Positions 49,125-63,512 of a DNA stretch of 64,000 bases are shown here, in pieces; the first letter of the stretch is position 1, and each line of letters begins with the position of its first letter. Source of the stretch: Saccharothrix sp. ALI-22-I (GTDB taxonomy: Bacteria; Actinomycetota; Actinomycetes; Mycobacteriales; Pseudonocardiaceae); the NCBI RefSeq assembly GCF_001984175.1, contig NZ_MTQP01000069.1, positions 620,001 through 684,000 on the forward strand. The letters run 5' to 3'. Position numbers and translations under genes: made by a program. A model generated the notes under the pieces. That model was not told the DNA's origin. It did not search any database and saw only the letters and a list, made by a program, of their open reading frames with translations.

Positions 49125-50060
49125 TCAGATCTTGCCCGTGCCCGCACCGCTCTGCACGATCGACTTCACGCTGCCGCACGCGTCGAGGGCGTAGGAGTAC
49201 GGGATCGCCCTGACGGAGCCGCCTTGGTCACCCGAGCCCGAGTTCACCAGGCAGTTGTTGCGCGCCACCAGGTTAGCGGCCGGCGAGGAGCCCTCACCGC
49301 GGTGGAACGGGTCTTCGGTGTTCTCGAAGGAGTTGCCCTCCACGAGCACGCCGGCCTCCATGGTGGAGGCGACACCGTACGACGTCACGCCGCCGTAGTA
49401 GTTGTTGTAGACGTGCACCGGGTTGCCGAAGCGCACGCGCGGGTGGCGCTGGTTGGTGCCGTCGAACCAGTTGTGGTGGTAGCTGACGCGCAGCTTGCCG
49501 CGGTCTTCGCCACCGTTGTCGTCACTGTGACCCAGCAGCATCGACTTGTCGTGGGAGCTGATCTTGTTCCACGACACGGTCACGCAGTCGGACGCGCGCT
49601 TGATGTCGATCGCGCCGTCGTAACCGTTGCTCAGGCTGTTGTGGTCGATCCACACCCTGGTCGAGTACTGGACGTTGATCGCGTCGTCGCCCCAGCCCCG
49701 GAAGTTCAGGTTCCGGATGATGACGTTCGACGCGTTGGAGACGTTCAGGCCGTGGCCGGTGATGGTGGCGCCCGAGTTGCCGATGATGGTCTTGTTCGAC
49801 GCGACCTTGGTCATGCTCGACAGGTTGATGGTGCCGGAGACCCGGACCACCGACGCGCTCGACGACCCGACGGCCGACACGAACGCCGAAGTGGTGGAGA
49901 CGGTGACCGTCGCGGCGCTGCCGCCACCGGTCGTGCCGCCGCACTGCGTACCCCAGCCTTCGAGGTTGAACGAGGCGGCGTTGGCCGAGGGTGCGGCCAG
50001 AGTCGCGGTGGCGACCAGCGCCGCGGCCGCGAGCAGGGAACGGGAGATCTTGCGGGACAT
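49125..50060 (-). CDS. Secreted pectate lyase, family PL1
   Basis: The 311-residue exported beta-helix enzyme has a signal peptide (MSRKISRSLLAAAALVATAT, cleaved near SANAA). It shows PL1 hallmarks: VIIRNLNFRGWGDDAINVQY, VWIDHNSLSNGYDGAIDIKR, DKSMLLGHSDDN, LRVSYHHNWFDGTNQRHPRV and RFGNPVHVYNNYYGG. The catalytic Arg lies in RHPRVRFG, and the calcium-binding Asp residues are in the DGAIDIKR strand. It cleaves polygalacturonate by beta-elimination. ATG 50060 follows GGAGGA. It ends the pectin operon, 79 bp after the enolase-superfamily gene, so it may also have its own promoter. Confidence 0.97.
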   Translation of the reverse strand: MSRKISRSLLAAAALVATATLAAPSANAASFNLEGWGTQCGGTTGGGSAATVTVSTTSAFVSAVGSSSASVVRVSGTINLSSMTKVASNKTIIGNSGATITGHGLNVSNASNVIIRNLNFRGWGDDAINVQYSTRVWIDHNSLSNGYDGAIDIKRASDCVTVSWNKISSHDKSMLLGHSDDNGGEDRGKLRVSYHHNWFDGTNQRHPRVRFGNPVHVYNNYYGGVTSYGVASTMEAGVLVEGNSFENTEDPFHRGEGSSPAANLVARNNCLVNSGSGDQGGSVRAIPYSYALDACGSVKSIVQSGAGTGKI

Positions 50061-50139
50061 GCGGTTTCCTCCATACGACAGTGGATGACAGGAAACGGCG
50101 GCGGTAAGACGTGGCGGCGGCCTGAGGTCTACACCGGAC

Positions 50140-51291
50140 TCACCACCTCTCAATGGTGTGTTTGCGGATGTGCTCGACGTCGAACTCGTCACCGAGACCG
50201 GGAGAGGAGGTCATGGTGACGTGGCCGTCCGCGTCGAGCGGGTCGGCGATCGCGAGCCGGTGGGGCGGCACGCGGTCGAAGTCGTGCAGCGGGTGCAACA
50301 GGCCGCGCTCGTACCAGCGGCCGTTGTCGGTGCCGCCGAGCAGGGCGAGGCTGGCGGAGCCGTCGCCGTGGATCTCGCAGTCCATGTTGAACGCCTCGGC
50401 CAGGTGCAGCGCCTTGAGCGTCGGCGAGATGCCGCCGACGTCGGTCGGGCCGGCGCGCAGGATGTCGCACGCGCCGGAGGTGATCCACTCGGCGCGGCTC
50501 ATGTGCTTGCCCCAGGCCACTTCCGGTCCGATCACCGGGATGGACAGCTGGTCGGCCAGCCACCGGTAGGAGCTGATCGACGCCTCCTCCATCGGCTCCT
50601 CGAACCAGTAGAAGTCCAGTGCCTCCAGCGCGCGGCCCAGTTCCAGCGCCTCGGTGCGGGAGTACCAGTGGTTGGCGTCGAGCATCAGCGCCACACCGGG
50701 GCCGACGGCGTCGCGCACCGCCTCGCACGCGGAGATGTCGGCCCGCACGTTGGGCGCGCCGGGCACCGGCGGCATCCACGTGTGCAGCTTGATCGCCCGG
50801 TAGCCCTGCTCCACCAGCTGCTTCGCGAACGACGCGTAGTCGCCCGGTGTGCTCAACCCGCCGGGCATCTCGTCGCCGCACATCGTGCTGGCGTACGCCG
50901 GGATGCGGGACCGGGCGCCGCCGAGCAGCTTCCACACCGGCTGTTCGACCCTCTTGCCCACCAGGTCCCACAACGCGGTGTCGATGTAGCCGAGCGCCCG
51001 GTCGGTGAACCGGCCGTGCGAGCCGCGCTGCTTGCGCGCCATCGACCGCCACAGCCGCTCACGGTCCCACGGGTCCGCGCCGACCAGCACCGGCCGCACG
51101 ATCGAGTCCAGCACGGCGGGCCGCAGCTGGTCGGGGTGCACCTGCACGCGGCCGACGACGCCGTCGGAATCGGTGATCTCCAGCAGCGCCTCGCGGACCT
51201 CGTGCTCGGCGCTGGGGTGTCGGTGCCCAGCCGGGTCCACCGCGGTCCACGCGGTGGTGGTGAACACCGACACCTCGACGCGTTCGATCAC
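50140..51291 (-). CDS. Enolase-superfamily (mandelate racemase-like) enzyme
   Basis: The 383-residue cytoplasmic protein has the MR capping domain (HEVREALLEITDSDGVVGRV) then an (alpha/beta)7 barrel. The second-strand base motif is GYRAIKLHTW (KxH). The metal ligands are in VALMLDANHWYS, FYWFEEPMEE and IPVIGPEVAWGKH, and a His-Asp dyad is suggested by CDILRAGPTDVGGI and DCEIHGDGSA. Such enzymes are mostly sugar-acid dehydratases. In a pectin operon, a dehydratase for a galacturonate-derived acid is a reasonable guess; cycloisomerase activity is also possible. The GTG start overlaps the binding-protein stop by 4 bp (GTGA). Confidence 0.9.
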   Translation of the reverse strand: MIERVEVSVFTTTAWTAVDPAGHRHPSAEHEVREALLEITDSDGVVGRVQVHPDQLRPAVLDSIVRPVLVGADPWDRERLWRSMARKQRGSHGRFTDRALGYIDTALWDLVGKRVEQPVWKLLGGARSRIPAYASTMCGDEMPGGLSTPGDYASFAKQLVEQGYRAIKLHTWMPPVPGAPNVRADISACEAVRDAVGPGVALMLDANHWYSRTEALELGRALEALDFYWFEEPMEEASISSYRWLADQLSIPVIGPEVAWGKHMSRAEWITSGACDILRAGPTDVGGISPTLKALHLAEAFNMDCEIHGDGSASLALLGGTDNGRWYERGLLHPLHDFDRVPPHRLAIADPLDADGHVTMTSSPGLGDEFDVEHIRKHTIERW

Positions 51292-52571
51292 TTGCGGTCC
51301 TCCCACTCCTTTTGTGCCTCGGTGAGCTTCTTCGCCATCTCGTCGAGGAACTGCTGGCCGGTCAGCTCGCCGAGGAGCACCTTCTGGTACTGGGGTTCGC
51401 TGTCGGTCTTGGTGATGGACGAGTACTGCGGCAGGTAGACCGGGGCGGGCACGAGCACGGTGGCCGGGTCCTCCAGCACGCCGAGCGCCATCTTCACGTG
51501 CGCGTTCGACTCGATCCACGCCTCGCTGCGCACGTCGGTGTTCGCCGGGATCTGGCCGACCTTCTCGTTCCAGTAGCTGTTGGACTCGGCGGAGGTCAGG
51601 AACTCGGCGAACTTCCACGCCGCGTCGGGGTTCTCGCTGTTCTTGAACACCGCGAAGCCGTCGGTCGGGTTGGGCACGACGGTCCGCTTGCCGCTCGGGC
51701 CGACCGGCAGCGGGATGGCGGCGACCTTGTCGCCCAGCGCCTTGGTGACGTCGCCGTAGGAACCCAGGTTGTGGTGCATCATCGCGACCGAGCCGCCGGT
51801 GAACTGGGCGATCATCTGGGTGAAGCTGTTGTTGACGTCGGCCTCGGGCGTGGCCTTCTTGTAGAGGTCGGCGACCTTGTCGACGAGTTCGGCGTTGGCC
51901 TTGTCGTTGAGCGTGCTCTTGCCGTCCTTGAAGAAGCTGTCCACGCCGGAGTACGCGTAGGCCTCGGTGATGAGCTGGAACACCGAGCCCGCGCCACCGC
52001 GGATGGTGTAGCCGTACTTGTTCGCGGCCGTGTCGGTGAGCTTCGTGGCGGCGGTGATGAACTCGTCCCACGTCTTCGGCGGCTCCAGGCCCGCGTCCTT
52101 GAACCAGTCGGTGCGGTACCAGATGAGGTCCATGTTGGCCGAGGACGGGACGATGTAGAGCTTGTTGTCCGGCGCGGTCTGGCGGACCGTCTCCACCAGC
52201 GAGGGCAGCAGCTTGTCCTTGAGCGGACCGCCGCTGATGCGGTCGTCGAGGGGCGCCAGCGCGTCCTGGCCGACCAGGTGCGCGAGGTACGAGGTGGTCA
52301 CGCCGCCGACGTCCGGCGTCTCGCCGCCGACGATGGCGGTGTCGTACTTCTGCTGCACCGACGCGCTGGGGATGCCGACGTACTCGACCTTGATGTCCGG
52401 GTTGGCGGCCTCGAACCGCTTGATCAGCTCCTCGTAGATCGGCTGGCGGGCAGGGCCGCCGTTGTTGTCCCAGAACGTGATGGTGGCCGTGCCACCACTA
52501 CTCGTGTCCCCGGACCCGCAGGCGGTCAACGCCAGCGCGGCGGCGGCCACGGCGACCAGCAGTTTTCTCAT
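51288..52571 (-). CDS. ABC transporter solute-binding lipoprotein, probable oligogalacturonide or pectin-sugar importer
   Basis: The 427-residue lipoprotein has a lipobox (ALALTACGSG). Its family-1 binding-protein features include ATITFWDNNGGPARQPIYEE, NPDIKVEYVGIPSASVQQKY, LYIVPSSANMDLIWYRTDWF, PKTWDEFITAATKL, YAYSGVDSFFKDGKS, VAMMHHNLGSYGDV and NPTDGFAVFKNSENPDAAWK. ATG 52571 lies 8 bp after the second permease stop. The operon order pectinase, two permeases, binding protein, enolase enzyme, pectate lyase indicates import of pectin fragments. The ligand itself is inferred from context. Confidence 0.92.
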   Translation of the reverse strand: MRKLLVAVAAAALALTACGSGDTSSGGTATITFWDNNGGPARQPIYEELIKRFEAANPDIKVEYVGIPSASVQQKYDTAIVGGETPDVGGVTTSYLAHLVGQDALAPLDDRISGGPLKDKLLPSLVETVRQTAPDNKLYIVPSSANMDLIWYRTDWFKDAGLEPPKTWDEFITAATKLTDTAANKYGYTIRGGAGSVFQLITEAYAYSGVDSFFKDGKSTLNDKANAELVDKVADLYKKATPEADVNNSFTQMIAQFTGGSVAMMHHNLGSYGDVTKALGDKVAAIPLPVGPSGKRTVVPNPTDGFAVFKNSENPDAAWKFAEFLTSAESNSYWNEKVGQIPANTDVRSEAWIESNAHVKMALGVLEDPATVLVPAPVYLPQYSSITKTDSEPQYQKVLLGELTGQQFLDEMAKKLTEAQKEWEDRK

Positions 52572-52579
52572 GATGCTCC

Positions 52580-53473
52580 CTATCCCTTGACAGCCCCGGC
52601 GCTGAGCCCCTGCACCAGGAACCGCTGCACGACGGCGAAAACCAGGACGACCGGTACGGCCGCGACGACCCCACCCGCGGCGAGCGCGCCGAAGTCGGTG
52701 TTGAACTCACCCAGCGCGTAGCTCAGGCCGACCGGCAGGGTGAACTTGTCCTGCCGCGACGCGAACATCAACGCGAACAGGAACTGGTTCCAGGCGCCGA
52801 TGAACGCGAACGACCCGACCGCCACCAGCGCGGGTTTGAGCTGCGGCAGCGTGACCGCGAAGAACGCGCGCAGGCGCGAGCAGCCGTCCACCATGGCGGC
52901 TTCTTCCAGCTCCACGGAGATGTTGCGGATGAACCCGCTCATCAGGATCAACGACAGCGGGAGCTGGAACGCCACTTCCGCGATGATCAGGCCGGTGATG
53001 CTGTTGAGCAGCCCGGCGCTCTTGAAGATCACGAACAGCGGGATCAGCATCATCGCGCCGGGGATGAACTGGGTGCACAGCATCGCCAGCAGGAAGACCT
53101 TCTGGCCGCGGAACTTGAACCGCGCGAGCGCGTACCCGCCCATCACCGACAGCACGGTCACGAACACCAGCACGCCGAGACCCATGACGACGCTGTTGTA
53201 GAAGAAGATCCCGAAGCCGATGTCGTTCCACACCGTGTCGAAGTGCTCGAACGTGATAGGCCACGGCACGAGCTGCGTCGAGCCGGTCGGCCGCACCGCG
53301 AACACCAGCATCCAGTAGAACGGGATGAGCGTGAACAGCAGGTACACCACCAGCGGCAGGTGGATGAGCCACCGCTTGCCCGGTTCCTCGGCCACCGCCC
53401 GGCGGCGCCGCTTCGTCGGCGGCCGGGGCGGGGGCGGGGTGTCCACCGGTGGTCGGATCAACGTCTCGGTCAT
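52580..53473 (-). CDS. ABC transporter permease (MalG type) of pectin operon
   Basis: The 297-residue membrane protein has a basic, proline-rich cytoplasmic N-terminus (PPVDTPPPPRPPTKRRRR) then six hydrophobic segments. The CUT1 EAA loop reads ELEEAAMVDGCSRLRAFFAV followed by TLPQLKPALVAVGSFAFIGA, and the C-terminus is VVQRFLVQGLSAGAVKG. It overlaps the preceding permease by 4 bp (ATGA) and is followed by the binding protein after 8 bp. It pairs with that permease, and a shared MsiK-like ATPase must come from elsewhere. Confidence 0.95.
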   Translation of the reverse strand: MTETLIRPPVDTPPPPRPPTKRRRRAVAEEPGKRWLIHLPLVVYLLFTLIPFYWMLVFAVRPTGSTQLVPWPITFEHFDTVWNDIGFGIFFYNSVVMGLGVLVFVTVLSVMGGYALARFKFRGQKVFLLAMLCTQFIPGAMMLIPLFVIFKSAGLLNSITGLIIAEVAFQLPLSLILMSGFIRNISVELEEAAMVDGCSRLRAFFAVTLPQLKPALVAVGSFAFIGAWNQFLFALMFASRQDKFTLPVGLSYALGEFNTDFGALAAGGVVAAVPVVLVFAVVQRFLVQGLSAGAVKG

Positions 53474-54345
53474 GCCCGGCTCCCGAACTTCGACACCCGC
53501 AGGTACAGGATCGAGAAGAACAGCAGGATGAGGAACCCGGCGATGGTGAGCGCCGAGCCGTACCCGAAGTTGTGCGAGTCGACGGCCTGCCTGGCGACGT
53601 ACAGCGGCAGCGTCGTGGTCTGGTTTGCCGGGCCGCCGCCGGTGAGTGTGTAGATGAGGTCGACGTTGTTGAACTCCCACACCGCGCGGAGCAGCGTCGA
53701 CAGGATGATCGCGTCTTTGAGGTGCGGCAGGGTGACGCTGGTGAAGCGCCGCCACCGGCTGGCGCCGTCCACGGACGCCGCCTCGTAGAGGTCCTTGGGG
53801 ATGCTCTGGAGGTCGGCGAGGAGCAGGATCGCGAAGAACGGGACACCGCGCCACAGTTCGGTGACGACGAGGGCGTCGAACACCGTGTCGGGGTTGCCGA
53901 GCACCGAGGTGCCCGGCGTGCCGATGCCCAGCTTGGAGAGTTCCTGGAAGATGCCGGTGGACGGGTTGAGCAGCAGGATCCAGATGCCCGTGGTGAGCAC
54001 GCCGGACACCGCCCACGGCGAGAACACCAGTGCCCGCGCCATGCCGCGGCCGATGAACGTCTCGTTCACGATCAGCGCCAGGATCAGGCCGAGCAGCAGT
54101 TGCAGTCCGACTTCGACGAACACCCACTTGGCGCTGAACGCCAGGCTCTGCCAGAACAGCGGGTCGTCGAACAGCATCTGCTTGAAGTTGTCCAGCCCCG
54201 CGAACCCGTTCTTCCACGGCTGCGTGACGTTGTACCGCTGGAGGCTGTAGTAGACGACGCTCCCGATCGGGTAGACCAGGAAGACCGCCATCAGCACCAG
54301 CGTCGGTGCGATCAGCGCATAAGGCGCCCACGTGCGAGTCCTCAT
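53470..54345 (-). CDS. ABC transporter permease (MalF type) of pectin operon
   Basis: The 291-residue membrane protein has six hydrophobic segments. It begins WAPYALIAPTLVLMAVFLVY and has a first periplasmic loop YNVTQPWKNGFAGLDNFKQM. FSPWAVSGVLTTGIWILLLN and the EAA-type loop DLYEAASVDGASRWRRFTSV follow, then TLPHLKDAIILSTL. These are CUT1 MalF-like features. ATG 54345 overlaps the stop of the pectinase fusion (ATGA), so the secreted enzyme and importer are translationally coupled. Confidence 0.95.
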   Translation of the reverse strand: MRTRTWAPYALIAPTLVLMAVFLVYPIGSVVYYSLQRYNVTQPWKNGFAGLDNFKQMLFDDPLFWQSLAFSAKWVFVEVGLQLLLGLILALIVNETFIGRGMARALVFSPWAVSGVLTTGIWILLLNPSTGIFQELSKLGIGTPGTSVLGNPDTVFDALVVTELWRGVPFFAILLLADLQSIPKDLYEAASVDGASRWRRFTSVTLPHLKDAIILSTLLRAVWEFNNVDLIYTLTGGGPANQTTTLPLYVARQAVDSHNFGYGSALTIAGFLILLFFSILYLRVSKFGSRA

Positions 54346-56507
54346 GCGGGGTTCCAGTCGCCGAGGTACGCGCGGAGGGTGTGCTGGGCGGCTTGTTCGG
54401 CCGTGAGCAGCGGACGGTCGACGCCTGCTGTGGCGCCCGCGCCGGAGTTGCGGAACTCGGCGAACCGGGCGTCGCGCCAGGAGAAGCCGGACATGTCGGT
54501 CCACGGCGCGGTCTTCACGGCGGCGGGCAGCTTCGTGTCGCGGATGACGACGGACGCGATGGCGTCCGGGTCGCCGCCGGGGTGCCACGGCCGTCCCAGG
54601 TAGAAGGTGCCCGCGGGCGCGTCGCTCACGATCGTGGAGTTCATGATCAGGAAGCCGTGGGGGTTGTCCCGGCGCGTGCTGGCGGCCGTGATGTAGCCGT
54701 TGGGGTCGCGGTCCCGGTTCAGCGCCGTGATGGTGACCTGGTCGAACACCGCGGTGGCGCGGCCGAAGATGAAGTCGACGTCGCCGACGATCTCGCCGCC
54801 CCGGTAGTACTGGCGGGCCTTCGTCCCCACGGCGCGCGTGTCGGCGTACAGGGTGTCCTGGTGCCCGAGGAACCGGACGCGGTCGTAGTACTGCCGGTCG
54901 CCCGTGGCCTTCACCGCGACGGCTTGCGTGCCGGTGATCTCGGGGTGCGCGGCCCGGTCGAACGAGTTGCTGAACGTCAGGTCGCGGGCGACGAACCCGT
55001 CCGCCTCGATCGTCGCGGTGGCCGACCCGGTAGTCCCGTAGGTGGTGCCGTCGGGCTTCTTGGTGCCGTTGGCGTTGTCGTAGTCGATGACGACGTCCCG
55101 CGCGTTGCCGGTGGAGCCCTTCAGCAGCAGGTCCGGCTTGGTGCGGGGCACCCGGATGACCTCGCGGTACACGCCCTTGCCGATGGTGATGGTCGTGCCC
55201 GGCGGCGCGGCGTCGATCGCGGCCTGCACGGTGTCGAAGTCGGTGCCCTTGGCCACGTGGTACCGCTCGCGCTCCTGCGCGCCCGCCTTGAGGTTCTTGA
55301 TCCGCGAGGCCGGTTCCAGACCGCGGTTCAGCGTGGGCGTCCAGCCGGCGTCGCCGGAGAGCTGCTTGGTCGGGTTGGCCGCGTTGAACGCGTCGAGCGC
55401 GTCGACCGGCTTCCCGTCCACGAGCGTGCCGACCTCGGTGATCGCGGTGCCGCTCCAGTTGTAGATGAGCTTGTCGACCGAACCTCCGTTGCCCAGCTTG
55501 ACGTAGTTGTTCTCCACGTAGAGCGCGGACTGCACGCCGACGCCCCACGCGTAGACGAACGACGGCCCCGGCTCGTAGAGGTTGTTGTAGACGTGCACCT
55601 GGCCGAACCTGACCCGCGGCAGCCGCTCCTCGACGTTGCGGAACACGTTGTGGTGTATCGAGACGCGCAGCTTGCCGGGGTCGACGGTGGAGGTGTTGGA
55701 CCCGCCGATCAGCATCGTCTTGCCGTGGTCCTCGAACCGGTTGTACGACACGGTGACGAGGTCGGCGCCGGCGGTGATGTCCAGGGCGCCGTCGTGCATC
55801 TGGAACGGGCGGTCGAAGTACTTCGGGAGCTCACTGTCCGGGTACGGCTGGTCGGTGAACGTGACGTGGTCGACCCAGACGTTGGTGCTCCCGCCCATCA
55901 CCCACACCGAGTCGTAGAGGGAGTTCCAGTTGCCGACCACGTCTTCGGTCGGGTTCCACTGGGGGAAGCAGTCGCGGGTGTCCCGCATGGTGAGGTTGCG
56001 GATGATCACGTTGTGCGCGCCGTTGAGGCGCAGGTTCGCGCCGGTGATGCCCGCGCCCTTGCCGTCGCCGACGATTGTGGTGTCACTGCCGATGTCGAAC
56101 CGGATGGCCTCGGTCTGCTTGGCCGCGGATGCCGCACGGGCGTCCTCCAAAGGGCCGCTCGGCCTCCTGTCACGCCCCCAAACAGCGGGATCGTATGCCG
56201 CCAAGTAGCCCGCAAGGGTATAGCCGTCCGTCGCGTAGGAAGAACAATCCTCGCGCACGTCGATGACTCCGCGCACTTTGATGATGCGCGGCGCGGGGGC
56301 GGCGAGAGCGGCCCGCAATTCCGCCTCAGTGCGCACGACGTGAATCGTCGTGGCAGCGGACCCGCCGGTGGTCCCGGTGCCGCTCGACGCCCAGCCGTCA
56401 CCTGCCTGAAGCACCTGTTTGCCCAGGTCATCGCTTGCGTGCGCGGGTACCGCCGCGACCACGCCGAGGGCGCATGAAAGCACGAGCGCAGAACTCAGTA
56501 TCCGCAT
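54342..56507 (-). CDS. Secreted PL1 pectate lyase-CE8 pectin methylesterase fusion
   Basis: The 721-residue exported protein has a signal peptide ending VPAHA. The PL1 domain (about 30-400) carries ANLRLNGAHNVIIRNLTMRD, VWVDHVTFTDQPYPD, DGALDITAGADLVTVSYNRF, EDHGKTMLIGGSNT and EERLPRVRFGQVHVYNNLY. From about 417 a CE8 pectin methylesterase follows (GTDFDTVQAAIDAAPPG, GTQAVAVKATGDRQYYDRVR, FLGHQDTLYADTRA, GEIVGDVDFIFGRA, FYLGRPWHPGGD) with both catalytic Asp and the Arg present. One polypeptide could de-esterify and cleave pectin. ATG 56507 has a weak upstream GGAAGG. It heads the pectin operon. Confidence 0.96.
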   Translation of the reverse strand: MRILSSALVLSCALGVVAAVPAHASDDLGKQVLQAGDGWASSGTGTTGGSAATTIHVVRTEAELRAALAAPAPRIIKVRGVIDVREDCSSYATDGYTLAGYLAAYDPAVWGRDRRPSGPLEDARAASAAKQTEAIRFDIGSDTTIVGDGKGAGITGANLRLNGAHNVIIRNLTMRDTRDCFPQWNPTEDVVGNWNSLYDSVWVMGGSTNVWVDHVTFTDQPYPDSELPKYFDRPFQMHDGALDITAGADLVTVSYNRFEDHGKTMLIGGSNTSTVDPGKLRVSIHHNVFRNVEERLPRVRFGQVHVYNNLYEPGPSFVYAWGVGVQSALYVENNYVKLGNGGSVDKLIYNWSGTAITEVGTLVDGKPVDALDAFNAANPTKQLSGDAGWTPTLNRGLEPASRIKNLKAGAQERERYHVAKGTDFDTVQAAIDAAPPGTTITIGKGVYREVIRVPRTKPDLLLKGSTGNARDVVIDYDNANGTKKPDGTTYGTTGSATATIEADGFVARDLTFSNSFDRAAHPEITGTQAVAVKATGDRQYYDRVRFLGHQDTLYADTRAVGTKARQYYRGGEIVGDVDFIFGRATAVFDQVTITALNRDRDPNGYITAASTRRDNPHGFLIMNSTIVSDAPAGTFYLGRPWHPGGDPDAIASVVIRDTKLPAAVKTAPWTDMSGFSWRDARFAEFRNSGAGATAGVDRPLLTAEQAAQHTLRAYLGDWNPA

Positions 56508-56533
56508 GGCGAGGAGCCTTCCCCGGCGAGATA

Positions 56534-56600
56534 GTTCATATTTGTGAACACTATCCAGAAGTGCGAACAGAGTATTACGAAAATGTCCGCCGCACGTCAA
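56534..56600 (-). promoter_or_regulatory. Promoter and operator of the pectin operon
   Basis: On the minus strand, TTGACG (56595-56600), a 17-base spacer and TAATAC (56572-56577) form a near-consensus promoter. Just downstream, at 56534-56549, the inverted repeat GTTCA-TATTTG-TGAAC lies about 15-30 bases after the expected start, where a repressor could block elongation. The cognate regulator is not obvious. Confidence 0.7.
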
Positions 56601-56714: not shown

Positions 56715-57662
56715 TCAGAGCGCGGGCGTGAAGGCGGCGATCCTGTCCGACAACGTCCGGGCGTGCGGGTCGGTCCGGTAGCGGTCGGCCAGCCGGCGCA
56801 ACGGCGTCAGTCGGTCGGCGACGCGGGTCGAGCCGACCTCGCCCGCCGCCGCCAACGCCTGCCCGCCCACTTCGGCGGCGTGGTCGAAGTCGTGCTCCAC
56901 CAAGTGGTTCGTGGCCAGTGCCACGAGGCTGAACGCGCGGCTGCGGGCCATCTCGTCCGGATAGCCCCGCACGGCGGTGGTCAGCGTGTCGATCGCCGTC
57001 GCGCTGTGCGCCGGGTTCACCGTCCGGGCCAACTCGGTCAGCACCACGCCGGTCAACCCGCACAGGTCCGACTCGTCGAAGAAGCGCGCCCACCCGGGTA
57101 CCGGGCCGGACGGCACGCGGGCGAAACCGTCGTGCGCCAGGTTCAGCAGCCGCATCGCCTCGCACTGGTTCCCCAACCCCGCGTGCGCCCACGCCTGGTT
57201 GGCCTGCAGCAGCGCGACCGCCCGCCGCGACCCCGCCCGGCGGGCCGCGACCAGCCCGCGTTCGAACATCTCCAACGCCTCCCGACACCGGCCGCGGTGC
57301 AGTCGCATCCGGCCGGCGCGGTAGTGGATGTTGGCCTCCAGGTCGTGGTGGCCGGCTTCGACGGCCAGTTCCAGCGCCCGGTCCCAGTGCCGCGCGGCGG
57401 CCTCCTCCAGTCCCGTGTCGAAACACGTCCACGCGGCCAGGTTGTGCACGTCGGCCAACGCGACCAGCAGCCGTTCGCGCACCGCGTCGGTCGCGTCGGC
57501 GTCGAGTAACCGGTCGTGCCACGCGGCGCAGACGACCGCCGAGGCGCGGCACGCGGCACCGCCCTGCCGGTAGTCCAGCCCGCGCAGGCGTTCGGTCTCC
57601 GCTTCCAGGCGGACCACGTCCTCGACACCGATGCGTGCCGGTACGTGTGGGTGTTCGGCCAT
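56715..57662 (-). CDS. TPR-like regulatory protein lacking a DNA-binding domain
   Basis: The 315-residue cytoplasmic protein is made mainly of helical TPR-like repeats: CRASAVVCAAWHDRLLDADA, LVALADVHNLAAWTCFDTGL, ARHWDRALELAVEAGHHDLE, NIHYRAGRMRLHRGRCREAL and DEMARSRAFSLVALATNHLV. This resembles the C-terminal sensor part of streptomycete XRE-TPR regulators. ATG 57662 follows GAGG; an upstream frame start at 57707 lacks support. No helix-turn-helix is encoded, but a divergent, frameshifted XRE gene 89 bp away carries one. They may be partners or a split regulator. Confidence 0.82.
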   Translation of the reverse strand: MAEHPHVPARIGVEDVVRLEAETERLRGLDYRQGGAACRASAVVCAAWHDRLLDADATDAVRERLLVALADVHNLAAWTCFDTGLEEAAARHWDRALELAVEAGHHDLEANIHYRAGRMRLHRGRCREALEMFERGLVAARRAGSRRAVALLQANQAWAHAGLGNQCEAMRLLNLAHDGFARVPSGPVPGWARFFDESDLCGLTGVVLTELARTVNPAHSATAIDTLTTAVRGYPDEMARSRAFSLVALATNHLVEHDFDHAAEVGGQALAAAGEVGSTRVADRLTPLRRLADRYRTDPHARTLSDRIAAFTPAL

Positions 57663-58106: not shown

Positions 58107-59384
58107 CTATTCTTCCGTCGTGGCCAGCCGGGTCGCGGCCGGCCCGTCCGACCGGTCCAGGCGTGCCGCCGCTCGGCGGTCGAGCCAGTTCAGCCACGGC
58201 GCGGTCATGACCGTGGTGATGATCGCGACCAGCACCAGCACGCTGAACAGCTCCTGGGTGACGATGCCCGCCGCCAGGCCGACGTTGAGCGCGATCAGCT
58301 GCATCAGCCCGCGGGCGTTCATCAGCACGCCGACCCGCAGCGCGTCCGCACTGCTCTCGCCGACCAGTCGCCCGGCCGCCCAGCACGCGCCGAACTTGCC
58401 CGCGATGGCCACCACGACGCACGCGACCGAGAGCAGGAGCAGGCTCGCGGTGAACAGCAGGCCGAACCGGGTGTTGAGCCCGGAGTAGGCGAAGAACAGC
58501 GGCAGGAACACCACCCGGGTGATCGGGCTGATCGCCGCGATCACCCGGTCGGACGCCTCCCCGCGGGGGAAGACGAACCCGACGCAGAACCCGCCGAACA
58601 CCGAGTACAGGCCGATCGAGTCGGTGTACCAGGCCGCGGCGAACAACGCGACGGCGGTGACCAGCACCAGCTGTTCGATCGACGCGCCCGGGCGGCGCAG
58701 CGCGAACGCCAGGCCGCGCTTGCCGATGGTGCCGAGGAACAGCAGGAACAGCAGCGAGCCGCCCGCGGTGATCAGCACGCCGGCGGGGTTGCCGGTGGCC
58801 AGGCCGAGCACGACGGCGAGCAGGATCCAGGCGACGCCGTCGTCCAGCGCGCCGCAGGCCAGCGCGAGTGAGCCGAACCGGGTCTCGGTGAGGCCTCGTT
58901 CGGTGATGATCCGGGCCAGCATCGGGAACGCGGTGATGGCCAACGCGACGCCGACGAACATCGCCGACACGAACACCGGGATGCCGTCGACCAGCACGTC
59001 CACGTGCTCGTGCACCAGCAGCACCAGCGCGATGCCGCCGACCAGCGGCGCGGCCACGCCCGCCAGCGAGATGGCGGGCGCCGAGCGGCCCAGACCGCTC
59101 ACCTTCCGGGAGGCGAACTCGTAGCCCACCTCGAACATGAACGCGACCAGGCCGATGTGGCTGACCACGTACAGCATCGGCCGCACGCTGGGCGGGAACA
59201 GCAGTTCCTGGAGATCCGGGCTGACGAACCCGAGGGCGGACGGGCCCAGCAGGACGCCCGCGATCATCTCGCCGACGACGGGCGGCTGACCGATGCGGCC
59301 CACCGCCGCCCCGACCATCCGGCACACGACGAGCACGACGACGGCGGCGAGGAAGAACCTGGCAGCCGTGGTGGCGATGTCCAT
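58107..59384 (-). CDS. Cation:proton antiporter, CPA2 type
   Basis: The 425-residue membrane protein has about 12 hydrophobic segments. Features of the KefB/NapA-like family are GRIGQPPVVGEMIAGVLLGP, FMFEVGYEF, FVGVALAITAFPMLARIITE, LACGALDDGVAWILLAVVLG (the DD ion-binding pair), FFAYSGLNTRFG and VGVLMNARGLMQLIALNVGL. It exchanges Na or K for protons. ATG 59384 follows GAGG, 10 bp after the P450 stop. It closes the redox operon, which is an unusual neighbour and suggests product export, pH balance or charge compensation for that pathway. Confidence 0.92.
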   Translation of the reverse strand: MDIATTAARFFLAAVVVLVVCRMVGAAVGRIGQPPVVGEMIAGVLLGPSALGFVSPDLQELLFPPSVRPMLYVVSHIGLVAFMFEVGYEFASRKVSGLGRSAPAISLAGVAAPLVGGIALVLLVHEHVDVLVDGIPVFVSAMFVGVALAITAFPMLARIITERGLTETRFGSLALACGALDDGVAWILLAVVLGLATGNPAGVLITAGGSLLFLLFLGTIGKRGLAFALRRPGASIEQLVLVTAVALFAAAWYTDSIGLYSVFGGFCVGFVFPRGEASDRVIAAISPITRVVFLPLFFAYSGLNTRFGLLFTASLLLLSVACVVVAIAGKFGACWAAGRLVGESSADALRVGVLMNARGLMQLIALNVGLAAGIVTQELFSVLVLVAIITTVMTAPWLNWLDRRAAARLDRSDGPAATRLATTEE

Positions 59385-59394
59385 GGGATGCCTC

Positions 59395-60687
59395 TCAGTC
59401 GTGGCGCGGCCCGTGACCCGGCCCATGACTTGGACCGTGACTTGGCTCGTGGTTTGCGAAGTAGCGCCGGCACAGGCCGACGCGGCGGGCGTCCCAGACC
59501 ATGTAGGTGCCCAGCACGAGCTGCACGACCCCGCGCCACACGTCCTCCCAGCGGTCGCGGACCCGGATGTAGAGCAGCAGCGCGCGTGGCGGCCGGGCGC
59601 CGCGCGGCACCAGGGCGCAAGGCCCGCGGTTGGGCAACGACCGGGTGTGCGCGGCCGTGGAGTGCACCGCGAAGCGGGTCAGCACCTCACGGGCCACCGC
59701 CCGCATCGCGATCGGCGCGATCACCCGCGCCGGGCACGGCCGGTTGCCCGTGACGCCGAACGGGATGTTCCCGCCCGACCGGTGGAACGACGGGTAGTCG
59801 AAGCACAGCACCGAGCCCTTGGGGATCGAGCCGCCGTCGATCGGGATGTCGGCGCTGGTGATCCGGTGCGCGATGCCGAACAGCGGGAACCGGCGGAACG
59901 CCTCGTCCATCACCTCGTCCACCAGCCCGTCCTCGCCGTCGGCGATGCGCTGCTGGATGTCCGGCCGCTGGGCCACGACGAGCAGCAGGTGGGCCATCGC
60001 CTCCGACGACTGCACCACGGCGGTGTTGAAGAACGTGCCCTGGAGGTACCACGCCTTTTCCTGGGCGTCGAACGTGGTGGGCAGTGCGTGCGGCACGGTG
60101 TCGATCCGGTCCAGCAGGAACCTGGTCAGCCGCTCACGGCGGTCCATGTGCCGCAGGCTGGTGCACTTGAGCGCGGAGACCACGTCGTCGGCGTTGGCGA
60201 CGATCAGGTCGCGCGCCTCCGGTGGGCACTTCTCGGCGAAGACCAATTCGTGGTTGAACTCCGCCCAGATCGGCATCATCAGGTCCCGCAGGCGGACCAG
60301 CCTCCGGGTGCCGAGCCCGTCGAGGACCCTCCGGGTGCACTCGGTGGCGAGCCGGTCGGCGTCCGCCATGCCGTGCGCCAGCACGCGCCGGGTGGTGCGG
60401 GCGACGTCGTCGTAGCGCGGCCCGGGTTCCAGGTGCTCCTGGTGCACCTGCGGTCCGGGCGCGAGCCAGTACCAGAACAGGTCTGACAGGGCCGCGCCGC
60501 GACTGCGCCCGTTGGCCGCGGGGTGCTCGTAGACGCGGCGGAAATCGGCCAACCCCACCAGGTCGCCGGGCACCGGGATGCCCTCGTCGCCGTTGATCCG
60601 GGCGAAGATCCGGGTCCGGAGCGCGACGACGGCGTTCGGCAGCCAGAACGGCAGGCTGCCCAGCACGAGGACGGCCAGCGGGATCAC
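59395..60687 (-). CDS. Membrane-anchored cytochrome P450-like protein
   Basis: The 430-residue protein has an N-terminal hydrophobic anchor (IPLAVLVLGSLPFWLP). P450 features are an ExxR motif in DEAFRRFPLFG and the heme-thiolate loop in NIPFGVTGNRPCPARVIAPI (Cys318), with one more residue between Phe and Cys than the canonical FGxGxRxC. The I-helix region is probably FFNTAVVQSSEAMAHLLLVV. The C-terminus adds a long tail and ends with a His-Gly-Pro-rich stretch (HEPSHGPSHGPGHGPRHD). GTG 60687 overlaps the oxidase stop by 4 bp. The substrate is unknown. A redox partner is not encoded here. Confidence 0.82.
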   Translation of the reverse strand: MIPLAVLVLGSLPFWLPNAVVALRTRIFARINGDEGIPVPGDLVGLADFRRVYEHPAANGRSRGAALSDLFWYWLAPGPQVHQEHLEPGPRYDDVARTTRRVLAHGMADADRLATECTRRVLDGLGTRRLVRLRDLMMPIWAEFNHELVFAEKCPPEARDLIVANADDVVSALKCTSLRHMDRRERLTRFLLDRIDTVPHALPTTFDAQEKAWYLQGTFFNTAVVQSSEAMAHLLLVVAQRPDIQQRIADGEDGLVDEVMDEAFRRFPLFGIAHRITSADIPIDGGSIPKGSVLCFDYPSFHRSGGNIPFGVTGNRPCPARVIAPIAMRAVAREVLTRFAVHSTAAHTRSLPNRGPCALVPRGARPPRALLLYIRVRDRWEDVWRGVVQLVLGTYMVWDARRVGLCRRYFANHEPSHGPSHGPGHGPRHD

Positions 60688-61694
60688 CACCGGATCACGT
60701 CCTCGGTCAGGGCCGCGGGCGTGTCGTAGCCGCACAGCGCCAGCGCCCGCACCAGCTCCGCGCGCAGGGCCTCCAGCACCTGCTCGACCCCCTTCTCCCC
60801 GTCCACGGCCAGCCCCCACAGCACCGGCCGGCCGACACCGACCGCGGTCGCGCCCAACGCGCACGCCTTGAGCACGTCCGTGCCGCGCCGGACACCGCCG
60901 TCCACCAGCACCGGCACTCGCCCGTCGACCGCGCGGACCACGGCGGGCAGCAGCTCCACCGTCGCCGGGACGGTGTCGAGCTGGCGGCCCCCGTGGTTGG
61001 ACACGATCACCCCCGCCACGCCGTGCTCGACCGCCAGCACGGCGTCGTCGGGGTGGACGATTCCCTTGAGCAGCAACGGCAACCGGGTCGTGGCGCGCAG
61101 TTCGTCCACGTCCGGCCAGGACAGGCCGGGGTCGAACCCGATCGGCCGGATCACGCCGTCCGCGTCGCGCATGTTCTCGCAGCGCAGCCCGTCCGGCAGG
61201 TCGGTGAACCCGTTGCGCAGGTCCCGTTCCCGGTTGCCGAACACCGGCGAGTCCACGGTGAGCACCAACGCCCGGCAGCCCGCCCGCTCGGCCCGCCGCA
61301 CCACGTGCCCGGTGAACTCCCGGTCCGGCTGCGCGTAGAGCTGGAACCACACGTCCGCGCCGGTCTCGGTGACCGACTCGATCGGCGTGGTCGCGGCCAT
61401 GCTCGCGATCAGCACCACGCCCGCCCGTGCCGCCGCCCTCGCCGTGGCCACCTCGCCGTCCGGGTGCGCCAACCGGTGGAACGCGGTGGGCGCGACCACC
61501 ACCGGCATCGACTGCCCACGACCCAGGAGTCCGGTGTGGACGGTCGGGGTGCCGCCCGCGCGCAGCACTCTTGGCACCAGACCGATCCGCGCGTAAGCCT
61601 CCTCGTTCGCGCGGACCGTGTGCTCGTCGTCCGCCCCGCCCTCGAAGAAGTCGAACACGGCCGGGTCGAGGCGTTGCCTGGCCAGTTCCCTCAT
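60684..61694 (-). CDS. FMN-dependent alpha-hydroxy-acid oxidase/dehydrogenase
   Basis: The 336-residue enzyme has a TIM barrel with LDPAVFDFFEGGADDEHTVR at the start, VVVAPTAFHRLAHPDGEVAT, FQLYAQPDREFTGHVVRRAE, LPLLLKGIVHPDDAVLAVEH with the FMN Lys, IVSNHGGRQLDTVPATVELL containing the active-site His and Arg, and VLVDGGVRRGTDVLKACALG. It oxidises an L-2-hydroxy acid (lactate, glycolate or mandelate-like). ATG 61694 overlaps the flavin monooxygenase stop (ATGA), and its own stop overlaps the P450 start (GTGA). The real substrate is unknown. Confidence 0.93.
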   Translation of the reverse strand: MRELARQRLDPAVFDFFEGGADDEHTVRANEEAYARIGLVPRVLRAGGTPTVHTGLLGRGQSMPVVVAPTAFHRLAHPDGEVATARAAARAGVVLIASMAATTPIESVTETGADVWFQLYAQPDREFTGHVVRRAERAGCRALVLTVDSPVFGNRERDLRNGFTDLPDGLRCENMRDADGVIRPIGFDPGLSWPDVDELRATTRLPLLLKGIVHPDDAVLAVEHGVAGVIVSNHGGRQLDTVPATVELLPAVVRAVDGRVPVLVDGGVRRGTDVLKACALGATAVGVGRPVLWGLAVDGEKGVEQVLEALRAELVRALALCGYDTPAALTEDVIRW

Positions 61695-63220
61695 CGGACC
61701 GGGACGCGCTGCGCCAGGAACCGCCGCAACGGGTCCCGGTGAGTGGTCGCGCCGGTCCACTCGTTCTCCAGGTTCTCCGCCAGGTGGTGGGTCGCGACGA
61801 CTTCGCCGTCACGCAGGTGGCGCACGACCGGGTGCAGGTAGGCGGCGTCGAACGCGCGCTCGGTGTCGTTCTGGGCGACTCGCCGCACGGTGATGTCGAA
61901 CGGGTCCACCTTGTCGTGGTCCGGCCCGTACTCCAGGGTGATCACGAAGCAGTCGTCGGCGAAGCCCGGCACCCAGTCGACCGGCAGTTCCTCGTAGTAG
62001 CGGGCGCGGTCGCCGTCGACGGTGACCACGTCGCCGAGTTGGCCGAACTGCTGCCACAGCCCGGAAGTCCGGTTCACCCGGTCCACCACGACGTCGGCCA
62101 GGTCGTCCAGGGCCACGTCCACGTGCGGCCACTCGGCCCCGTGGTACTTGCGCTCCAGGATGCGGTGCAGCGACCGGACGCAGTAGCGGAAGCCGTGGAT
62201 GAAGCCGCTGGTGGACTTCTTGAAATCGCGGACCTGCATGAGGGTGCCCGCGAAGTACAGGTCGGGGGTGTTGGTGGACTCCCACTCGGGGGTGAGCGCG
62301 GCGAACCTGTCGTTGATGGTGAGTGCCGGTTTTTCGGTGAACACGCTTGCGTCGAACCGGAACCCGGTGGCCGCGATGACGCGGTCGTAGCGCAGCTCCT
62401 TGGTCACCTCGTCGGCACGGGCGAAGCTGACCTTGACCACGAAGCCGTCGCCGTCCGGGCGGATGTCGAGCACGTCGCCGTCCAGCACGGCGTTCTGCGA
62501 CTTGAGCTGGTAGGTGTCGAGGAAGTTGTTGTTCACCGCGCGCACGTGGCCGACGAAGTGCGTCTGCCAGGCCATCCGGAGCGAGTGCGGGCCGACCAGG
62601 TGGATGACGGCGGCGGTCTCGACCAGGTTGTCCGCGGTCTCGAACGCGGAGTTGCCCTTGCCGATGATCAGCACCCGCTGGTCGGTGTAGTCGTCCGGGT
62701 CGGTGGACGCGGTGCCGTACGGCTCGGCGTGCTCGATGCCCGGGATGTCGGGCAGGTACGGTTTGGACGGACCCGTCGCGACGATGACCCTCTTGGCCGT
62801 GTGCGTCCGTCCGCGACTGTCACGGACCACGAAGTGGTCCTTTCGGCTCACCTCCACCACGCGGCTGTCGTAGTGGATGTCCAGATCGGTCTTGGCGGCG
62901 AAGTCCTGCAGGTACCGCACCAGGTCGTCGGCGTGCGGGAAGTAGCGCGGGGTGTAGCGGGTGAACAGCAGCTCGGGATCGTCGGACAGCAGGGAGTTCC
63001 AGTCCATCCGGAGGTTCAGCTCCGGGTCCGTCGTGCCGGTGTGCGGTTTGTTGATGGAGATGAGCTTGCGGTGCCGGGGAAAGGTCTTGAAGAACGTTCC
63101 CGCGGCCGGCCCGGCTTCGAGAATCCGGTAGCTGCGCCGGGCCTGGTGCAGGAAGTAGCCCAGTTGCAGACCGGCCGGGCCGGCACCGATCACGAGGTAG
63201 TCGACATCCATGTCGGTCAC
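61691..63220 (-). CDS. FAD-dependent (flavin-binding) monooxygenase
   Basis: The 509-residue enzyme has an N-terminal FAD-binding GxGxxG (YLVIGAGPAGLQLGYFLHQA), a second dinucleotide site (VLIIGKGNSAFETADNLVET) and ATG-type strands (VIVATGPSKPYLPDIPGI and RVIAATGFRFDASVF). This is the layout of flavin-containing and Baeyer-Villiger-like monooxygenases. A C-terminal extension (from about 390) has no known motif. GTG 63220 is preferred because GGAGG lies 5 bases upstream; ATG 63211 is an alternative. It is the first gene of a four-gene coupled redox operon. Confidence 0.9.
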   Translation of the reverse strand: MTDMDVDYLVIGAGPAGLQLGYFLHQARRSYRILEAGPAAGTFFKTFPRHRKLISINKPHTGTTDPELNLRMDWNSLLSDDPELLFTRYTPRYFPHADDLVRYLQDFAAKTDLDIHYDSRVVEVSRKDHFVVRDSRGRTHTAKRVIVATGPSKPYLPDIPGIEHAEPYGTASTDPDDYTDQRVLIIGKGNSAFETADNLVETAAVIHLVGPHSLRMAWQTHFVGHVRAVNNNFLDTYQLKSQNAVLDGDVLDIRPDGDGFVVKVSFARADEVTKELRYDRVIAATGFRFDASVFTEKPALTINDRFAALTPEWESTNTPDLYFAGTLMQVRDFKKSTSGFIHGFRYCVRSLHRILERKYHGAEWPHVDVALDDLADVVVDRVNRTSGLWQQFGQLGDVVTVDGDRARYYEELPVDWVPGFADDCFVITLEYGPDHDKVDPFDITVRRVAQNDTERAFDAAYLHPVVRHLRDGEVVATHHLAENLENEWTGATTHRDPLRRFLAQRVPVR

Positions 63221-63512
63221 GTGCACCTCCAGAGGGGTGAGTGCTCGCCACCACTACGAGATCGAGCATCCCTCGGGTTCATCCGTACGCGGCACAGTGC
63301 ACGAATGGACGTATGGCCGGTTCGGGAAGACGAAGGTCGGCGGCGCCCACCTACGCCGCCGACCACGATCCACTCCGCGAGTCGTCCCGGCGACAGCAGC
63401 TCAGAGCACATGTGATCGGTGGCCGCGCAGGCCGCCTGAGCTGTCTGCGCCGCAGCGGGGTCCGTCGGCCTAAGCTCGCGGGTGGAGTGATCACACCGGG
63501 GGGCGGATCGCG

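Follow-up and report, generated by a model that had tools for sequence, protein, structure and literature searches.

A conserved four-gene redox operon of actinobacteria that probably forms the oxidative core of a specialised-metabolite pathway

In the genome of Saccharothrix sp. ALI-22-I, the genes for a FAD-dependent flavoprotein, an FMN-dependent alpha-hydroxy-acid oxidase (HAO), a non-canonical cytochrome P450 and a CPA2-type cation:proton antiporter form an operon that is real and conserved far beyond chance. In addition, an AMP-forming acid ligase was found to travel with this cassette. Since the four genes are conserved together and accompany an acid-activating enzyme, they probably belong to one undescribed pathway. 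Our preferred reading, held with moderate confidence, is that they constitute the oxidative core of a small actinobacterial specialised-metabolite pathway that works on an activated, perhaps aryl, acid.

The window analysed here is a stretch of 64,000 nucleotides (contig NZ_MTQP01000069.1, positions 620,001 to 684,000), and the four genes lie consecutively on its minus strand, where the initial annotation had placed them. The first gene (61691..63220) encodes a FAD/NAD(P)H flavoprotein with a Pyr_redox_3 domain (178.8 bits) and a C-terminal region of about 180 residues without a Pfam match. Its GTG start at 63220 is located 5 nt past a GGAGG; a longer frame from the GTG at 63226 would overlap this site. 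The HAO gene (60684..61694; FMN_dh, PF01070, 422.7 bits) overlaps the FAD gene in an ATGA (61694/61691) and is in turn overlapped by the P450 gene (59395..60687) in a GTGA, both as previously described. By contrast, the last junction had been read as a 10 bp overlap and is actually a 10-bp gap, with the antiporter gene (58107..59384; Na_H_Exchanger, PF00999, 179.8 bits) starting at 59384, after the P450 stop. This start is preceded by AGAGG, and an alternative in-frame ATG upstream, at 59426, would give a 32-bp overlap with the P450 gene. The four reading frames are uninterrupted and coupled, and the motifs of the FAD enzyme, the HAO and the antiporter are computed to be intact. A helix-turn-helix N-terminal fragment suspected at about 57.8-58.0 kb on the plus strand was dropped, as a profile search gave no match. 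The neighbouring genes in the window resemble plant-cell-wall sugar-use genes, as named from their sequences.

Conservation was assessed in 116 loci selected by the P450 alone, a set that includes the window and one duplicate pair (L042 and L181). Genes in the relatives were called by codon usage, with approximate starts and gaps. The order FAD-HAO-P450-CPA2 is present in 77 of the 116 loci, which clearly contradicts the idea that these genes are never conserved together; the three enzymes alone are in order in 93, and the full order is joined by the RR and HK genes of a two-component system in 58. The HAO gene is immediately upstream of the P450 gene in 102 loci and, as far as the approximate gene calls tell, overlaps it in 97 of these. 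Near the P450 gene, HAO is found in 110 loci, FAD in 103, RR and HK in 88 each, and CPA2 in 86, followed by the ligase (72), a sulfotransferase-like gene (34), an ammonia-lyase (21) and other families in 15 loci or fewer. Moreover, the distance matrices of the three enzymes co-vary (r 0.85-0.86, with species relatedness ignored). In three Kibdelosporangium loci and two similar ones, the four genes sit between pdxT-yebC and ruvCAB-yajC together with one to three other genes, and neither ligase nor two-component genes occur in this interval (gene names read from sequences). A match in a plasmid collection was to an N. gerenzanensis record that carries no gene annotation.

It could be argued that the four proteins serve housekeeping or the redox-stress response independently of each other, and that chance, common descent or selfish-operon effects keep their genes side by side. 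Each gene does come from a large family whose members are known in many individual roles, and the antiporter is exchangeable. Nevertheless, the order is maintained across many genera despite differing surroundings, and even an unlinked ligase co-occurs with the cassette; we thus regard separate roles as very improbable.

The ligase gene is within six genes of the P450 gene in 72 of the 116 loci and absent from that range in 44. In the Saccharothrix genome it is unlinked, with an orthologue on another contig (441.5 bits versus 178.3 for the runner-up). In a class sample of 394 genomes (two samples treated as one set, as their size and, where listed, their handles agree), 12 of the 13 genomes with the P450 had matches of at least 462 bits, against none of the 381 without it, and the next best match scored 398.6 bits. 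The profile used includes the Saccharothrix ligase and possibly sequences from species near the sampled ones. The Fisher p for this co-occurrence is 5e-22, or 2e-20 with the Saccharothrix genome left out, both ignoring the relatedness of the genomes; G402 is the only P450-positive genome without a high-scoring ligase. Relatives of the ligase at 46-52% were present in all four bare-cassette genomes that were checked, and in L106 the gene adjoins the cassette. When the ligase was compared with McbA-type amide bond synthetases and fatty-acyl-CoA ligases, its best solved relatives by profile were 6sq8/6h1b (399.6 bits), although a search with the single Saccharothrix sequence gave 205 bits, which marks a general relative only. 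The records name this molecule 'Fatty acid CoA ligase', and we take it to be McbA; an McbA-type identity was not accepted for the cassette ligase, as this presumed McbA is the nearest solved relative only.

Other genes extend the set further. An OmpR-type two-component system is usually found beside the cassette, although none adjoins it in the window. In about one fifth of the loci, mostly of the Micromonospora type, the set also includes a tyrosine ammonia-lyase and another FAD enzyme. In the lyase of L042, the Ala-Ser-Gly of the MIO group is present and the selectivity pair His-Leu is aligned to 2o6y; the nearest solved protein is 2o6y/2o7b, presumably a tyrosine ammonia-lyase, and at the His position altered in chain 2o78 the L042 lyase has a His. 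This lyase scores higher against HutH models than against tyrosine-specific ones, all under their cut-offs. The ammonia-lyases of the Saccharothrix genome were rejected as cassette partners, as the best match (43%) lies in another cluster. The presence of the lyase and the ligase suggests an activated carboxylic acid, aryl or other, as the candidate substrate; a lipid, hydroxy acid or small metabolite, as proposed in the initial annotation, is also a candidate. Nevertheless, the ligase is missing from the six-gene range in 44 of the 116 loci and only 20 have the lyase nearby, which means that p-coumarate is not a safe assumption for the window. The earlier view of one linked pathway holds in that the genes are a conserved unit with co-varying enzymes, but the four genes are an incomplete set without the ligase, often the two-component system, and sometimes the lyase and second FAD enzyme.

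Of the four genes, that of the antiporter is replaced most readily (near the P450 gene in 86 loci). Its Asp-Asp motif is kept in all 86 members, and the window protein scores 120.5 bits against the NCBIfam CPA2 model 2a37, below the cut-off of 238.3. In 8 of the 116 loci an MFS-family gene is directly downstream in its stead, and in a minority from Actinomadura, Actinoallomurus and Actinocatenispora its place is taken by an MFS transporter, a DUF6282 protein or an aldehyde-dehydrogenase-like protein (the last named from its sequence). Such replacements would fit catabolism or detoxification as well. In a module of that kind, the ligase, FAD enzyme, HAO and P450 would degrade a plant- or lipid-derived acid, the antiporter would counter acid stress and the two-component system would sense the compound. 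Acyl-CoA-ligase-like enzymes and two-component systems are typical of catabolic sets, and the apparent sugar-use genes around the window cassette also favour this explanation. In contrast, the Micromonospora-type tyrosine ammonia-lyase would produce an aryl acid beside the cassette, the sulfotransferase-like gene is recurrent (34 of 116 loci), and no beta-oxidation or ring-cleavage family was recognised by inspection among the 29 neighbour families present in at least eight loci each. We consider catabolism or detoxification a possible, tentative alternative to the biosynthetic core that we prefer.

The P450 scores 23.5 bits against the p450 model, for which the cut-off is 22.8, and its gene was not among the matches of a genome-wide PF00067 search. 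It has the fold of a P450, as judged from the model of its homologue in L106 (pLDDT 87.1), which aligns to 4r21 over 345 residues (Z 28.6, 2.9 Å). The heme-ligand Cys is present in 115 of the 116 P450s, the remaining one being a gap in L055, which is frameshifted there; in the ExxR motif, Arg is found in all 116, with Glu in 107 and Asp in 9. No acid-alcohol pair of the classical monooxygenase kind was found in helix I. The site was located by its spacing to the end of the helix in known P450s, and holds Val-Gln in all 116 proteins; a shift by one residue, as in the PDB alignment, still gives no such pair. The protein has a hydrophobic N-terminus and a C-terminal helical extension, and a homologue's model shows an N-terminal helix over residues 2-40, which makes the membrane anchor proposed earlier plausible. 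The earlier description of three oxidative enzymes needs refining for a P450 that lacks the classical oxygen-activating pair.

An FxPxRW-like meander motif (ERR triad) is found in 104 of the 116 P450s and is absent from the window protein and nine other open-frame relatives. In the window (59765..59780, minus strand), about 20 residues are missing between FHRSG and NIPFGV, a PERF-type segment present in most relatives, and the ERR-triad arginine is gone too. Because of this loss, the activity of the window P450 is uncertain. Perhaps the window copy is decaying and no longer works, as its regulator and ligase are unlinked and no two-component genes of the family lie beside it. However, its frames remain open and coupled, the ligase persists on another contig, and the same loss is common to eight Amycolatopsis-clade loci and one open-frame Sporichthyaceae MAG protein, with the heme Cys retained. 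Decay thus seems very improbable to us.

In the HAO, the catalytic His234, Arg237, Lys210 and Asp148 are kept in all 110 members, and 35 of them, including the window protein, have Phe in place of the Tyr close to the carboxylate of the substrate. The latter is under the cut-off of every NCBIfam model among the matches listed. In the FAD enzyme, the structures listed hardly cover the C-terminal part beyond about residue 364, for which a new fold is not proposed.

In the scheme that we infer, the ligase would activate a carboxylic acid and hand it over to CoA or an amine; in Micromonospora-type loci the acid would probably be p-coumarate, formed from tyrosine by the nearby ammonia-lyase. In a presumed order of steps, the FAD enzyme or enzymes may oxygenate the intermediate using NAD(P)H and O2, or halogenate it like the possibly related OroF. 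The HAO may then convert an alpha-hydroxy-acid centre to a keto acid, and would release H2O2 in the case of true oxidase activity. Next, the membrane-tethered P450 would modify the intermediate again; rather than a classical monooxygenase, it may be a peroxygenase, an isomerase or a dehydratase. The antiporter could support export or pH/ion balance, and the two-component system, where adjoining, probably controls the cassette. A more specific form of this scheme, which we think rather unlikely, is a self-feeding module for activated aryl acids, in which the HAO would make H2O2 on site for the coupled membrane-tethered P450, which would have abandoned oxygen activation, and in some lineages the meander too, to act as a peroxygenase or isomerase, beside an ERFAD-like, perhaps halogenating flavoenzyme.

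If the preferred pathway exists, natural-product chemistry would gain a gene cluster that is widespread in actinobacteria, has no evident PKS or NRPS core and could be missed by routine searches; even the Pfam P450 model barely detects the window protein. The cluster would also bring a P450 subfamily that lacks the standard motifs for oxygen activation and the heme pocket, and it might offer bacterial relatives in which the chemistry of ERFAD can be studied. Because the unit is conserved, the cluster, the P450 subfamily and the ERFAD link are directly testable.

Among known systems, CYP152 fatty-acid peroxygenases also lack the classical acid-alcohol pair and carry an Arg-Pro pair. They match the P450 fold (7wyg, Z 26.9, 350 residues, 3.5 Å; 1izo, Z 26.5, 349 residues, 3.4 Å), and H2O2 from the HAO could feed the cassette P450. 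Nevertheless, identity is 14-15%, the cassette P450s have Val-Gln in place of Arg-Pro, and many classical P450s score equal or higher (best Z 28.6); the structural comparison does not set CYP152 apart, and this identity was rejected. The HAO, with its catalytic residues retained, scores 301 bits against hydroxyacid oxidase 1 (6gmb) and 247.6 bits against 4-hydroxymandelate oxidase and is of the FMN-dependent hydroxy-acid oxidase kind that takes in lactate oxidase. Human ERFAD may share motifs with the window FAD enzyme.

In line with the initial annotation, which named no known pathway with this set, the gene combination was not described among the matches listed in open-licence literature; this is weak evidence, as only open-licence papers were covered. 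A search of such papers for P450s without the acid-alcohol pair likewise gave nothing useful. The akazaoxime cluster, with its NRPS/PKS and diiron oxygenase, appears unrelated from the sections consulted (PMC9967187), and bacterial ERFAD relatives are not mentioned in the excerpted text of PMC3040216. One of the closest parallels is the sponge oro cluster, an animal gene bundle with other partners, in whose available passages neither HAO nor antiporter is mentioned (PMC12833800). According to the same passages, it combines a CoA ligase, P450s and a FAD enzyme made of a FAD/NAD-binding part and a C-terminal part of unknown function, and this ERFAD/FOXRED2-like enzyme, OroF, was shown to brominate a pyrrole (PMC12833800). 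The two-part window FAD enzyme fits OroF, as portrayed there, in its architecture.

In the window, the four genes lie on the minus strand in the order FAD enzyme (63220-61691), FMN alpha-hydroxy-acid oxidase (HAO; 61694-60684), P450 (60687-59395) and CPA2 antiporter (59384-58107). The FAD enzyme, HAO and antiporter clearly match Pfam models (Pyr_redox_3, 178.8 bits; FMN_dh, 422.7 bits; and Na_H_Exchanger, 179.8 bits, respectively), and the P450 barely passes its own (23.5 bits, with a cut-off of 22.8); the gene was not among the results of a genome-wide P450 search. The ATGA and GTGA overlaps that the initial annotation placed at the FAD/HAO and HAO/P450 junctions are indeed present. By contrast, the 10-bp overlap that it claimed between P450 and CPA2 is wrong, as an ATG with an upstream AGAGG begins 10 bp past the P450 stop; an alternative, longer in-frame ATG would give a 32-bp overlap. 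The observation of a four-gene operon holds. Elsewhere in the window, an NsdA-family TPR protein (56715-57662, minus strand) matches profile positions 139-432 only, its N-terminal part being absent, and a search of the sequence immediately upstream gave no profile match to such a part encoded separately. Positions 49125-56600 encode proteins that, by names read from their sequences, are pectate-lyase- and pectinesterase-like, together with ABC sugar transport; they apparently serve to exploit plant cell walls and have nothing to do with the cassette.

Homologous loci were selected with the P450 as the sole query. It matched 38 of 397 order-sample genomes (E <= 1e-5), 35 of them closely, own genome included (best piece 56-67% in the other 34), and three through weak, partial matches at 32-33%; in the class sample, the P450 family profile matched 13 of 394 genomes (E <= 1e-20). 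In genome_contigs, a P450 relative is encoded on 337 stretches, of which the best 80 were taken. The 116 loci comprise the window, 34 order-sample stretches, 80 named loci and L039, a chromosome-sized record despite its origin in a plasmid collection; one locus is counted twice (L042 and L181), and some stop at contig ends. HAO lies immediately upstream of the P450 in 102 loci, FAD-HAO-P450 is kept in 93, and the four-gene order that the initial annotation proposed to look for in other genomes is kept in 77 of these P450-selected loci (28/34 order-sample, 48/80 named, and the window), followed in 58 by a response regulator and a kinase. L039 lacks the four-gene order, with no HAO in the gene calls made here. 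In those same calls, gene ends overlap at 97/102 HAO-P450, 63/93 FAD-HAO and 52/84 P450-CPA2 junctions. L169, titled Rhodococcus rhodnii NRRL B-16535, is probably mislabelled, since both its cassette and the genomic context match those of Kibdelosporangium aridum (L149). In L129 and L150, parts of the cassette lie on contigs from Acidobacteria and Melainabacteria bins; these are possibly mis-binned actinobacterial DNA.

The suggestion that the genes serve one pathway is strongly supported, although the four are better described as the core of a larger group. Up to six genes away from the P450, the 116 loci carry an AMP-binding acid ligase (72), a response regulator (84), a kinase (88), a sulfotransferase-like gene (34), an ammonia-lyase (20) or two FAD genes (19); the family table gives 88 regulators and 21 lyases because it counts families anywhere in the locus. 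As a built-in control, every neighbour family beyond these and the cassette occurs in at most 15 loci. In the first set of loci assembled, which has 20 with a lyase, fifteen of these belong to family f15, that of Micromonospora sp. CP22, and five to f1, the window's own.

The window cassette is bare, with no ligase or two-component genes beside it. Kibdelosporangium and two close loci also have the bare four genes; there they share the interval from pdxT-yebC to ruvCAB-yajC with one, two or three additional genes. In a FastTree tree built from 92 concatenated FAD-HAO-P450 sequences (the duplicate L181 was dropped from the 93), the window, on a long branch, groups with these bare cassettes (seven rows, local support 99), and three other genomes of the same genus fall elsewhere, a pattern suggestive of transfer or differential loss. 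The ligase orthologue of the window's genome is on another contig (G000:C41:44690-46138). A profile of 23 ligases scores at least 462 bits in 12 of 13 P450-positive class-sample genomes and in none of the other 381 (best 398.6); because this profile includes the own ligase, the score of the latter is inflated, and leaving that genome out gives 11/12. The sole exception, G402, is a fragmented and somewhat contaminated assembly. All four bare-cassette genomes checked encode the ligase away from the cassette (46-52% identity); in a fifth (L106), it adjoins the cassette. Relatives at 340-399 bits in genomes without a P450 match (G585, G748, G717 and others) are the nearest outgroup of the ligase. 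Another own-genome cluster, at about 14.5-34 kb of G000:C51, contains an aromatic amino acid lyase and an AMP ligase.

The P450 is non-canonical. The predicted structure of the L106 homologue shows a P450 fold, and the heme Cys and ExxR are kept in the family; nevertheless, Val-Gln occupies the place of the classical acid-alcohol pair in 116/116 members. We locate this place by its distance from the end of helix I, as in known P450s; the best PDB alignment moves it by one residue, and the pair is still absent. The meander segment is missing from the window P450, eight Amycolatopsis-clade loci and one Sporichthyaceae MAG, as well as from L055, which is, however, frameshifted. In HAO, His234, Arg237, Lys210 and Asp148 are kept in 110/110 members; a site placed by lactate-oxidase alignment, presumably next to the substrate carboxylate, is Tyr in 73/110 and Phe in 35/110, including the window. 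The antiporter keeps its Asp-Asp motif in 86/86, but of the four proteins it varies most (38-72% identical to the window's antiporter) and is the most readily replaced.

From sequence, specialised metabolism is a more likely role than catabolism. The ligase would adenylate an acid, and the FAD enzyme, HAO and P450 would oxidise the intermediate in some order. The L042 lyase carries the His-Leu selectivity pair of 2o6y/2o7b, which we take to be a tyrosine ammonia-lyase (the record says putative histidine ammonia-lyase); thus, in the lyase-bearing loci, about a fifth of the total, the acid is probably p-coumarate. Because a P450 without the acid-alcohol pair adjoins an enzyme that may release H2O2, we speculate that it might be a peroxygenase fed on the spot by HAO.

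Among the matches listed in open-licence papers, none describes this gene set. Both dinucleotide-binding motifs are conserved in the FAD enzyme, as are long segments that are almost invariant (PRHR, DWNSL, TYQLK). Its predicted fold (mean pLDDT 79.1, with some low-confidence stretches) is nearest to YpdA (7a7b: Z 24.8, 313 residues, 3.4 A) and to the bacterial FMO 4c5o (Z 23.5, 303 residues, 2.9 A). A distant second relative in the same genome (G000:C24:24112-25645) is read in two frames and thus probably frameshifted. The window enzyme, P0001, may resemble flavoproteins of the ERFAD/FOXRED2-like type. According to PMC12833800, no reaction catalysed by ERFAD has been characterised, and OroF, an enzyme of the ERFAD-like family from a sponge cluster, is a pyrrole brominase.
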